This document shows, in pieces, positions 252-4,387 of a stretch of DNA of 6,117 bases. Origin of the DNA: a bacterium (GTDB lineage Bacteria; Planctomycetota; J058; JAJDCP01); contig JAUIEM010000487.1 of the NCBI GenBank assembly GCA_030428695.1, forward strand, positions 1-6,117, written 5' to 3'. The notes beneath the pieces were generated by a model. It searched no databases and was not told where the DNA came from. It was given only the letters and a program-made list of their open reading frames with translations. Positions within the stretch are counted from its first letter, which is position 1; the number at the start of each line of letters is the position of its first letter. A program made the translations under genes and the position numbers.

Positions 252-257
252 ATGCCG

Positions 258-3050
258 ATGCCCGCTACCACCCTGTGCTCCCGTTGCAATCATGAACCCG
301 CCGGCCCGCTCGGCGTCTGCGCTCCCTGCCTGGGCCCCGCGGTCGAGGCGGACGTGCAGCGCGGACGGCTCGAGCGTTTCGTGCGCGACGCGATCGTGCT
401 CGCGCTGGTCAACTTCAGCCCCGCTCCGCTCGGCTTCGCCGTGCAGCTCGGCCTGAGCTTCTGGGAGAACTTCTGCCGCCGCGCTCCGGCCGACCGCGCC
501 CGGCTGATCGGCGCGGCCGCCGCCCCGGACGCGCCCGGAGAGCTCGCCGCCAGCCTAGGCCCCGAGCTGGCGGCGGGTCCGGGACTGGAGCCGGAGGCGG
601 CCGAGCAGCTCGTCGAGCGGCTGGTCGGCGCGGTCGCGGCCTGCCCGGCAGACGCCGACCCGGCGACGGTCGAGACGGTGTTGCGGGAGCGCCTGCTGCC
701 CGAGGGCTCGCGCCTGTGCCTGCCGCCGACCCGGGTCCAGCCCGTCAGCACCCGCCTGCTCGGACGCCGCGCCCGGCGTGTCGAGCCGGCGGTCGCGCTG
801 CCCGGGGTGCCGGGCTACCGCGTGCTCGACGTCCTCGGCCGGGGCGGGCAGGGCACCGTCCTGCTCGTGCTGCGCGAGGAGACGGGTGCGCACTGCGCGT
901 TGAAGCTCCGGCCCTGGAGCGCGCGCGCCGCCCAGGCCAACGAGGTGTCGCGAAAGCTCGAGAAGCACCCGCAAGTGATCGAGTGGGTGGACGACGGCGA
1001 GCTGCTCGACGGCGGCCGCTGGAGCTACGTCGTCCAGCGCCCGGTCTGCGCCGGGACGGTGCGCCAGGCGATCGACCAGGGCCTCGACCGCGAGACCGCC
1101 CTGTGCTTCGCCGGCCAGATGCTCGAGGGCCTCGCCTCCGTGCACGGGCAGAACGTCGTCCACCGCGACCTCAAGCCCTCGAACCTGCTTTTGCAGTTCG
1201 TCGGGCGCGAAGAGGAGGGGCTGTTCGGGAGCGACCTGCGGTTGCGCATCACCGACCTCGGCCTGGCCCGCGATCTCGCCCGGACGCGGCTGACGCGGAC
1301 CGGCGCGGGCGGCGGCTGGACGCACCTGTACTTCTCCCCGGAGCACATCCGGGCGGAGGACGGGACGAGCGTCGGCTTCGCCTCGGACATCTGGTGCTGC
1401 GGGCTGGTGATCCACGAGCTCCTGACCGGGAGCCTGCCCTACAAGCGCAGCTGGTCCGAGTGGCGGCTGTGCATGCACCTCACCCCCTCGGAGTGGAAGT
1501 ACACGCCGCCCGAGGACCTGCCGGCGCCCCTGCAGAGCTTCCTCCGCGACTGCCTGCACATCGACCCGGACAAGCGCTGGCGGAGCGGGCAGGAGGCGCT
1601 GGAGGCGTTCCGCGAGGCCGGTGGTGATCTGCTCGCCCGGCTGCGCCACGAGCGCTACCGCGCGGGCTGGAAGGAGGTGCTCGAGCGTGGCCTGCTGCGC
1701 GACTTCCTCCGGGACCGCGACGGCGTGCTCGGCGAAGATGCGGCGACGGACTGCGCGCGCGCCCTGGCGGCGGCGGGGGTGGAGGCCTTCGATGCGCGGC
1801 GCCTGCCCGGGCTGCTCGAGGGGCTCGCTCCGGCGGTGCGGGCGGGGCTCGCGAAGCAAGCGGTGGCGCGGCGTCTCGACGAGGCCTTGCGCGATGCGGT
1901 CGCCGGGCTGCCCGAGGATCCTGGCGGCGCGGACTGGAGCGCGCTGGGCGCGCAGCTCATGAAGGGCGGAGAGGCGATCGCGGCGCGCCGGGCCGAGGCC
2001 GACCGCGTGCAGCAGGAGGCGGCGGAGGAGCTGCTCGCGCCCCTCGGCGCGGACTGGGCCGGAAGCGAGCGGCCGGCGCGCCGGCCGCGGGCTCAACGGC
2101 CGCTCCCCGGCCTGGAGGCGAGAGAGCGCTGGTGGAGCCCCGCCCCGGAACAGAGGGCTGAGGCGGCGCGGTGCGGATGGCCCGTGGCGGTGCGGAACAC
2201 TCGGGAGATGGACTTCGCGCTGATTCCGGCGGGGTCCTTCCGGATGGGGTCGCCGGAAGCTGAGCCGGGGCGGGACAGTGACGAAGAGTTGCACAACGTC
2301 ACGCTCACGCGCAGGTTCTACCTCAAGGCGACGCCGGTCACCCAGGGCGAGTTCGCCGGGCTGATGGGGTACAACCCCTCCTGGTTCAAGGGAGCGGGGC
2401 TCGAGGCGCCGGTCGAGATGGTGAGCTGGTTCGACGCCGTGGCCTTCTGCAATGCGCTGTCCGAGGCCGAGGGGCTGGTGCCTGCCTACGTCCTCGACGA
2501 GGTCGAGAAGGACGAGGGCGGAAGCATCACCGCCGCGACGGTGCGCTTCCATGGGCTGCACAGCCCGGGCTACCGGTTGCCGAGCGAGGCGGAGTGGGAG
2601 TACGCCTGCCGGGCGGGCACGGCGAGCGCGCTGTACACGGGGGCGTTGACGATCCGCGGCGAGCGGGACGGACCCGAGCTCGACCCGATCGCCTGGTACG
2701 GGGGAAACAGCGGCGTCCGTTACGAGGGAGCCGTCGACAGCTCCGACTGGAAGGAGAAGCAGCACGCGCACGAGCGGGCGGGAACCCATGCCGTCGGGCA
2801 GAAGCTTCCGAATGGCTGGGGACTGTTCGACATGCTCGGCAACGTCTGGGAATGGTGCGGTGACTGGTTCGGTTCGTACGAAGGAGATGTGACGGACCCC
2901 GGCGGGCCGGCGACGGGCGTGGGCCGCGTGCTTCGTGGCGGATCCTGGTACGACTACGCCAGGAGGTGCCGCTCGGCCTACCGCGGCTACAGGAGGCCGA
3001 GGAGCCGCTACAGTAATCTGGGCTTCCGCCCCGCGAGGTGTCTCCCTTAG
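258..3050 (+). CDS. Zinc-ribbon / Ser-Thr protein kinase / FGE-like (SUMF1) fusion protein
   Basis: A 930-residue, probably cytosolic, signalling protein; no signal peptide or membrane segment is visible. Residues 7-24 form a CxxC-x10-CxxC zinc ribbon. A Hanks-type kinase spans about 184-452: glycine loop GRGGQGTV (194-201), ATP-binding Lys216 in CALKL, catalytic HRDLKPSN (302-309, Asp304), DLG in place of DFG (333-335), SPE in place of APE (360-362) and DIWCCG (377-382). All catalytic residues are present, so it should be active. A helical linker (about 455-640) follows, then an FGE-sulfatase/SUMF1 domain (about 650-928) with IPAGSFRMGSP, RLPSEAEWEYACRAG, NVWEW (862-866), LRGGSW (892-897) and LGFRPAR. 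Aligned to true formylglycine-generating enzymes by eye, the first active-site Cys is Asp899; the second is kept as Cys904. The domain therefore more likely binds a ligand or protein than makes formylglycine. The gene converges on an ECF sigma gene. Its last codons look like a DGR variable region. Confidence 0.95.
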   Translation: MPATTLCSRCNHEPAGPLGVCAPCLGPAVEADVQRGRLERFVRDAIVLALVNFSPAPLGFAVQLGLSFWENFCRRAPADRARLIGAAAAPDAPGELAASLGPELAAGPGLEPEAAEQLVERLVGAVAACPADADPATVETVLRERLLPEGSRLCLPPTRVQPVSTRLLGRRARRVEPAVALPGVPGYRVLDVLGRGGQGTVLLVLREETGAHCALKLRPWSARAAQANEVSRKLEKHPQVIEWVDDGELLDGGRWSYVVQRPVCAGTVRQAIDQGLDRETALCFAGQMLEGLASVHGQNVVHRDLKPSNLLLQFVGREEEGLFGSDLRLRITDLGLARDLARTRLTRTGAGGGWTHLYFSPEHIRAEDGTSVGFASDIWCCGLVIHELLTGSLPYKRSWSEWRLCMHLTPSEWKYTPPEDLPAPLQSFLRDCLHIDPDKRWRSGQEALEAFREAGGDLLARLRHERYRAGWKEVLERGLLRDFLRDRDGVLGEDAATDCARALAAAGVEAFDARRLPGLLEGLAPAVRAGLAKQAVARRLDEALRDAVAGLPEDPGGADWSALGAQLMKGGEAIAARRAEADRVQQEAAEELLAPLGADWAGSERPARRPRAQRPLPGLEARERWWSPAPEQRAEAARCGWPVAVRNTREMDFALIPAGSFRMGSPEAEPGRDSDEELHNVTLTRRFYLKATPVTQGEFAGLMGYNPSWFKGAGLEAPVEMVSWFDAVAFCNALSEAEGLVPAYVLDEVEKDEGGSITAATVRFHGLHSPGYRLPSEAEWEYACRAGTASALYTGALTIRGERDGPELDPIAWYGGNSGVRYEGAVDSSDWKEKQHAHERAGTHAVGQKLPNGWGLFDMLGNVWEWCGDWFGSYEGDVTDPGGPATGVGRVLRGGSWYDYARRCRSAYRGYRRPRSRYSNLGFRPARCLP
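2946..3041 (+). other. Candidate DGR variable region in the FGE-like domain
   Basis: After the LRGGSW motif the protein reads YDYARRCRSAYRGYRR, then PRSRYSN and LGFRPAR. This matches the layout of C-type-lectin-fold DGR target proteins, where a fixed RGGSW and a fixed GFR bracket Asn-derived variable positions. The codons fit an A-rich AAC/AAT-type template with A substitutions: TAC, GAC, TAC, GGC, TAC, AGC, TAC, AGT, AAT. Codon use breaks sharply here. Scanning the frame, I count six AGG arginine codons in the last 35 codons, against two AGG and one AGA in the roughly 890 before. No template repeat or reverse transcriptase is in the window, so this is an inference from pattern. Confidence 0.5.
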
Positions 3051-3092: not shown

Positions 3093-3181
3093 GCAGGGCA
3101 GCGCCGGCACGGATCAAGCGCGGCGCGGAGAACCGAAGCGGAGCCGGTCGCGCCGAGCGGTCCGGGCCGGCGCTGCCCTGC
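3093..3181. repeat. Long foldback (21-bp arms, 20/21 matching)
   Basis: The arms at 3093-3113 and 3161-3181 are complementary at 20 of 21 positions. The 47-bp spacer folds again: 3118-3127 pairs with 3149-3158 (9 of 10), and ACCG (3132-3135) with CGGT (3145-3148). Nearly the whole 89 bases could therefore pair on either strand. It starts 42 bp after the kinase stop codon and ends exactly where the next hairpin begins. It may be a structured RNA, a transcription-blocking structure, a short palindromic mobile element, or the structure often found after a DGR variable region. Confidence 0.75.
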
Positions 3182-4084: not shown

Positions 4085-4108
4085 GGCGGGGGTAAACCCC
4101 GCCACTAC
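4085..4108 (-). repeat. GTAG-type REP palindrome, left copy
   Basis: Read on the - strand this is GTAG followed by a hairpin: GGCGGGG (4085-4091) pairs perfectly with CCCCGCC (4097-4103) around a 5-base loop. It matches the copy at 4187-4210 at 23 of 24 positions in opposite orientation. A GTAG tetranucleotide next to a short GC-rich stem is the hallmark of REP elements mobilised by REP-associated tyrosine transposases (RAYTs), as described in several bacterial groups. The family assignment is inferred from form. Confidence 0.75.
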
Positions 4109-4186
4109 ATGAGAAATCCGTTGAGGAAGGCGAGCTCAAAGAGAACTTGGAAACCTGGCAACCGCACACTTACATTGCAACCGAAT

Positions 4187-4210
4187 GTAGGGGCGGGGTT
4201 TACCCCCGCC
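4187..4210 (+). repeat. GTAG-type REP palindrome, right copy
   Basis: GTAG (4187-4190) is followed by GGCGGGG (4192-4198), loop TTTAC and CCCCGCC (4204-4210); G4191 and C4211 extend the stem to 8 bp. With the left copy it forms an inverted pair 78 bp apart, the two GTAG ends facing inward, like a BIME (paired REP unit). The 78-bp centre shows no gene. No transposase is in the window, so any mobilisation would be in trans. Confidence 0.75.
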
Positions 4211-4279
4211 CGTCGTACCGAGGGAACACGCGCCCCAACCGCCGAGGAAACCCACCGCGTGGACCGAAAACCCGAACCC

Positions 4280-4387
4280 CGCACATCCCCCAACCACCGC
4301 CCGCAGCTTCCACCCGGCCCACGGCCACGGTCACGACGCGACGGATCACGGATCACGGACCACGGACCACGGATCACGGCCACGGTT
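4280..4387 (+). repeat. Dispersed repeat, copy B, with 7-bp tandem array
   Basis: This is the direct-orientation partner of 79-178. It starts with the same CGCACATCCCCCAAC and shares the 19-base identical block at 4333-4351. From 4340 it continues as a heptamer array: GACGGAT, CACGGAT, CACGGAC, CACGGAC, CACGGAT, CACGGCC. The array differs in unit order and number from copy A, as expected for slippage-prone repeats. It lies 4,201 bp from copy A and 290 bp upstream of the ECF sigma start. Confidence 0.8.

Follow-up and report, generated by a model that had tools for sequence, protein, structure and literature searches.

The C-terminus of the kinase–FGE protein encoded in the window (that is, the whole stretch of DNA that was analysed, a complete contig of 6,117 bp) appears to be a sensor tail of DGR lineage joined to a protein kinase, and we hold, with somewhat better than even confidence, that this tail is most likely settled in the copy at hand. 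The homology of the domains, the correspondence of the variable slots with those of DGR repeats that are accompanied by templates and the occurrence of kinase fusions among such targets are all evident from the comparisons described below.

Organization of the kinase–FGE protein and its contig

The features on which the analysis is based are the following:

252..3050, forward strand: kinase–FGE protein of 932 aa (ORF; Pfam Pkinase and FGE-sulfatase)
816..1583, forward strand: Hanks-type protein kinase domain, residues 189-444 (Pfam PF00069, E 1.3e-33)
2211..3038, forward strand: FGE-type C-type-lectin domain, residues 654-929 (Pfam PF03781, E 1.2e-47; TvpA 2y3c, E 3.5e-31)
2934..3029, forward strand: 32-codon module, homologous to verified DGR variable repeats (slot homology; template adenine content)
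2961..3038, forward strand: six AGG arginine codons, 904, 905, 914, 915, 917 and 929 (codon count)

The translated kinase domain contains GRGGQGTV, ALK, HRDLKPSN and DLG, which we take to be the catalytic motifs of a Hanks-type Ser/Thr kinase. The N-terminal stretch ahead of it (252-815) carries a CxxC...CxxC motif at its start, and the hydropathy maximum of the 932-aa protein (1.68, residues 48-66) is borderline as a membrane segment. The search with residues 1-650 was passed by 298 proteins, and among the 120 listed the best match besides the window itself scored 97 bits; the matches are 26-38% identical over 19-64% of these residues and lie mostly in the kinase domain, past which few of them extend. 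The best 25 of the 31 PADLOC matches all lie on the kinase domain, one of them extending to residue 601. Among genome contigs (80 of 87 loci), no close full-length relative of the protein was found: 77 loci match the FGE region only and one the kinase only (L080), and in the remaining two (L019 and L024) the match spans both kinase and FGE, with a best-segment identity of 32%.

Five genes of the contig were submitted to Pfam. The contig carries a HU-like gene and an ECF factor that has one relative at 58%, its remaining matches being at or below 37%; the HU-like gene and the type of ECF factor may point to Planctomycetota or a neighbouring group. Two direct copies of an intergenic dispersed repeat (57 and 50 nt, 86-88% identity) lie within 78-179 and 4279-4368, and a MITE-like inverted repeat with 26-nt arms that are 96% complementary and spaced by 74 nt (4085-4110 / 4185-4210) is located upstream of the ECF gene. 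Another inverted repeat, with 21-nt arms that are 95% complementary (3093-3113 / 3161-3181), lies between the kinase gene and the ECF gene, which converge, and reads as a terminator or a mobile remnant. The contig starts with a GGGAAGAGG-type simple repeat (1-77), which is perhaps the reason why the assembly ends there. No Rfam family matched the window at the gathering score.

The top match of the FGE domain among solved structures (PDB) is Treponema TvpA, a DGR variable protein (2y3c, E 3.5e-31) that shares with the window protein an FGE-type C-type lectin with a variable C-terminus but, according to the excerpted text of PMC6328139, consists of a single domain, without a kinase. The Pfam FGE-sulfatase match and the presence of human FGE among the PDB matches are what one would expect of a catalytic formylglycine-generating enzyme. 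We nevertheless consider this assignment highly improbable and reject it, because the active-site cysteines of human FGE, 336 and 341 (excerpt of PMC6328139), which we located on the human FGE alignment, align with Ala903 and Ser908 of the window protein; with this pair replaced, a binding domain is likelier than an enzyme.

Template/variable pairs and kinase fusions in related loci

Pairs of template and variable repeats were regarded as verified, by sequence, when a second copy was present on the same contig and the repeat differed from it at the adenines of that copy, the Prosthecochloris plasmid DGR serving as the first control. The search for Avd covered 294 sampled genomes from the phylum of a Pirellulales genome, and thus from Planctomycetota; Avd was detected above the curated cut-off in 20 and at E 1e-10 in 32. 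From the 41 Avd places listed, 32 regions were fetched (all 24 above the cut-off and eight below), and 21 of these 32 contain a pair. Three regions from Acidobacteria, six from plasmids and one viral contig bring the number of scanned loci to 42, of which 28 hold at least one template/variable pair. Pairs of the FGE module number 30, in 20 loci; those lacking the FGE motif, some of which are antisense duplicates and some FGE repeats cut by the chosen stretch, were left out. Slot statistics were computed on the 17 same-length pairs, the 13 omitted being two of L081, with a template deletion, and 11 others of different length. In these 17 pairs, template adenines are represented in the variable copy by A (0.386), T (0.289), G (0.225) and C (0.10), and changes affect 22 of the 1,192 non-A sites. 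One Acidobacteria locus (L171) has a single template with four variable repeats of the FGE type, all inside 12.9 kb, and in L166 one template is accompanied by two targets on opposite strands, the first with kinase, NACHT and FGE domains.

Pfam was run on nine of the 30 target ORFs, and kinase and FGE domains co-occur in four of these nine multidomain targets (L140, L149, L162 and L166), the L166 target carrying NACHT as well; the other multidomain targets have NACHT or TIR-nSTAND1. Like the window protein, these four, all from sampled Planctomycetota, combine an N-terminal Hanks kinase with a C-terminal FGE domain and the same 32-codon module; unlike it, they have a template on the same contig, beside Avd, and slot codons that match this template. 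Their overall similarity to the window protein is low: L140 is 38% identical over 305 residues, linker included, whereas L149, in which kinase and FGE are placed similarly to those of the window, is distant (23%). The domain reading offered in the preliminary description, namely an FGE or C-type-lectin tail of DGR type fused to a kinase, was thus right, and this architecture is ordinary for FGE-type DGR targets, given the 30 FGE pairs, the four kinase–FGE fusions among nine targets and the correlation reported below (Spearman 0.87).

Comparable systems are already known, since kinase–lectin targets and remote targets have been published for cyanobacterial DGRs. As far as the excerpted text of PMC7517822 goes, cyanobacterial DGRs have kinase–CLec targets, including remote ones far from the RT, and a Nostoc paralogue retains remnant template homology without an RT nearby. 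These proteins resemble that of the window in that a kinase is joined to a C-terminal hypervariable CLec; they are scattered away from the RT, and one of them keeps no more than a remnant of template homology. They differ in that the host is a cyanobacterium and that the template was demonstrated in the same genome. The Prosthecochloris aestuarii pPAES01 DGR (L081) likewise has FGE targets with the RGGSW..LGFR module, with 66.7% DNA identity to the window over 135 nt at an E of only 0.5, but differs from the window contig in being a complete DGR composed of Avd, RT and template. FGE-containing DGR targets within conflict systems have also been described (excerpts of PMC10907252 and PMC7159879). 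Two further proteins came to light in the course of the comparison. In phage ctSAF950 (MW202622; L095, 12001-12753), an FGE protein whose C-terminus is VR-like is encoded on the other strand from the genes annotated there, and L176 (7320-10082; L174 in the slot table) encodes a 920-aa FGE fusion in which 13 of the 14 VR-like slots are pyrimidine-ending; neither a template copy nor a DGR RT was found in the genome of L176.

Variation at template-adenine positions

Within the 32-codon module of the window, 14 slots are variable (900-902, 905, 910, 912-915, 917, 918 and 920-922) and the framework between them is fixed. Variation among relatives of the window protein is concentrated at the positions that carry adenines in templates instead of being evenly spread: the adenine content of 14 distinct templates correlates with the per-position entropy of the relatives with a Spearman coefficient of 0.87 (32 positions, 342 alignments), a result that holds at the level of the family only. 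The motif expression used to pick the pairs itself fixes eight framework positions; when these were removed and identical modules collapsed (342 alignments to 313 distinct modules, from 119 proteins), the coefficient was 0.80 (24 positions, p 2.5e-6). The 119 proteins are the best 120 of 7,977 homologues minus the window itself, and several of them are near-identical. At template-A positions the relatives are 17.3% identical to the window; the figure is 84.4% for the other module positions and 50.7% for the remainder of the domain (342 alignments), the unfixed framework positions being 78% identical (313 modules). For the slots chosen by eye, the corresponding values are 12.5%, 80.7% and 50.7% (330 alignments). 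The module of the window has 16 non-A mismatches to the nearest template, which is inside the range of 15-22 that separates the 17 verified variable repeats from their nearest non-cognate templates. These comparisons support homology of the C-terminus, down to the individual slots, with DGR variable repeats that have templates, although the correlation with template adenines, as a family-level result, would bear on the lineage rather than on rewriting of the window copy.

The same data bear on the alternative that the tail is an ordinary FGE-like binding domain, shaped by duplication and selection without any DGR ancestry, its AGG cluster being due to codon drift or an imported segment. The relatives vary chiefly at the template-A positions of independent DGRs, for which drift alone would be insufficient unless the patch were under selection for binding, and the framework is as good a match to DGR templates as that of verified repeats. 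More in keeping with such an origin, the slot codons of the window fall outside the verified range and place it among the nine of 26 other modules with a median mismatch of at least 0.60, and five relatives come from genomes in which no DGR was detected (both described below). On balance, we regard an origin without DGR ancestry as unlikely.

Codon pattern of the C-terminus

The C-terminal segment is delimited, as earlier noted, by a fixed RGGSW, which starts at 2934 (codons 895-899), and a fixed LGFRPAR (923-929), and the codons listed between them in the preliminary description are all present. Their reading as the product of an A-rich template did not hold up: the stretch has 16.7% A against 13.2% for the ORF, which does not make it A-rich, and among the 901 in-frame segments of 96 nt in the ORF, 212 hold at least as much A. 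Furthermore, the Tyr, Asp and Asn codons are all pyrimidine-ending, so that the residues themselves account for most of the codons listed.

The clustering of AGG was confirmed. Eight AGG codons occur among the 932 of the ORF, six of them within the last 35, as had been claimed, and only three AGR codons, one of which is AGA, precede codon 895. The proposed switch of arginine from CGN to AGG is likewise borne out by the AGR:CGN ratio of 6:5 in codons 895-932 versus 3:82 earlier (Fisher p = 3.6e-5), but it is incomplete, five of the 11 C-terminal arginines remaining CGN. When the nine AGR codons were permuted over the 96 arginines, a run of 11 arginines with at least six AGR arose in 311 of 200,000 permutations. 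At the 14 variable slots, which were picked by eye, all six Arg or Ser codons are AGN, compared with one of eight at the other 18 positions of the module (p = 0.0047); no other single sign points as strongly to an ancestral template bearing adenines.

Part of the codon pattern, in contrast, would speak against recent rewriting of the window copy. AGG occupies four of the 14 slots (905, 914, 915 and 917) versus none or one in the 17 verified repeats; second-base C or T is absent from the window slots versus 3-11 occurrences in these repeats, an absence with a neutral chance of about 0.003; and 10 of the 14 slot codons end in a pyrimidine versus 11-14. Speaking against the window as an outlier, L112, a DGR-locus repeat that is not among the 17, shows only one second-base C or T. 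All four AGG slots misfit the codons of verified templates, AAC or AAT being the commonest at 905 and 914 and, at 905, the template codon in 17 of 17 verified pairs. Given that AAC and AAT templates cannot yield AGG, the AGG cluster cuts both ways. The median slot mismatch to templates is 0.62 for the window versus 0.35-0.53 for verified repeats; this measure separates poorly, given that, among 26 further modules that are themselves unpaired, nine score at least 0.60 and 17 lie below.

A DGR located elsewhere might nonetheless still be rewriting the repeat, using a template whose codons at 905, 914, 915 and 917 are AAG or AGG, a scenario that we consider possible but rather doubtful. It is consistent with the framework and slot homology to verified repeats, with the uniform use of AGN at the six Arg/Ser slots, with the presence of Avd above the cut-off in 20 of the 294 sampled Planctomycetota genomes and with the targets distant from the RT published in cyanobacteria (excerpt of PMC7517822). 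Moreover, a template rich in Lys and Arg codons, of which AAG or AGG at some slots is known, would remove the AGG anomaly: AAG occurs at 915 in the L171 template and AGG at 904 and 913 in several templates, and two template-like modules (L113 and L157) have two AGR slots. The consistent AAC or AAT at 905 weighs against this scenario, however, as do the 14 distinct templates, with none or one AGR slot each. Its more specific form, a DGR acting in trans on a stand-alone kinase, whose sensor tail it would rewrite from a template with AAG or AGG in place of AAC at several slots, is more doubtful still; such a template would be predicted to bias the repertoire towards Tyr, Arg, Ser, Gly, Asp and Asn, with purines only at the second base.

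Searches for a template, RT and Avd

As already pointed out in the preliminary description, the 6,117-bp contig itself contains no RT, Avd or template, judging from a Pfam comparison of five of its genes and a repeat scan, and the search for a near-copy within the window yielded none with mismatches mainly at template adenines. Among viral contigs, the exact 21-base 3' end had no match, and two degenerate template patterns produced one match (L102, without a pair) and none, respectively. A distant DNA search of phages and plasmids recovered only short or weak matches, including the DGR plasmid of P. aestuarii (E 0.5), and the consensus template peptide had no match in plasmids and phages, perhaps through the low-complexity filter. 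The 16 modules in L001-L080, each compared within its own locus, gave no pair.

FGE domains related to that of the window at E 1e-50 or better were found in three of 199 sampled genomes (G097, G121 and G154) and in two of 297 (G367 and G381), being the nearest among at most 12 and eight candidates scored per genome, respectively. They are 44-53% identical to the window over most of the FGE domain, G367 reaching 60% over its second half. The RT probe recovered all 20 control genomes, themselves selected for Avd plus a template pair, with 2.8e-26 as the weakest of their best E values, and its matches in the five related genomes, at most 5.9e-22 with 29% identity, included no DGR-type RT; this strongest match, in G154, was rejected as a DGR RT, its length and sequence, inspected by eye, reading as those of a group II maturase. 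None of the five has Avd above the cut-off, with weak sub-threshold matches resembling four-helix bundles in three, and in G154 no further copy of the VR-like C-terminus was found, apart from short chance matches. Because these genomes are in many contigs and the domains only 44-53% identical, little can be concluded from them on the genome to which the window belongs. Taken together, the proposal that this copy is retuned by a DGR acting from elsewhere found no support, considering the contig without RT, Avd or template, the four atypical slot codons of 14 and the five related genomes without a detected DGR, and, going by the codons, present rewriting of the window copy appears somewhat less probable than its absence.

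Implications

We favour, instead, a settled sensor tail. The C-terminus would be a ligand-binding C-type lectin of FGE type, from the lineage of DGR variable proteins and borne by a serine/threonine kinase. It most likely serves as a sensor, in which a hypervariable surface patch of about 14 residues would bind a ligand and the fused kinase would relay the signal, with ligand binding, coupling to the kinase, surface position and cellular location all inferred. In the window copy, the patch would descend from DGR-written ancestors and would have seen no recent rewriting from an AAC/AAT template, comparable to the Nostoc paralogue mentioned above. If the repeat were active after all, the protein would be one more kinase among the signalling proteins retuned by retroelements, served by a template of a type unseen among the 14 compared. 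When no genome is available, slot codons can help to distinguish a settled variable repeat from one that is still live, and the pairs found in sampled Planctomycetota, with their kinase, NACHT and TIR-STAND fusions, may serve the field better than the window itself.
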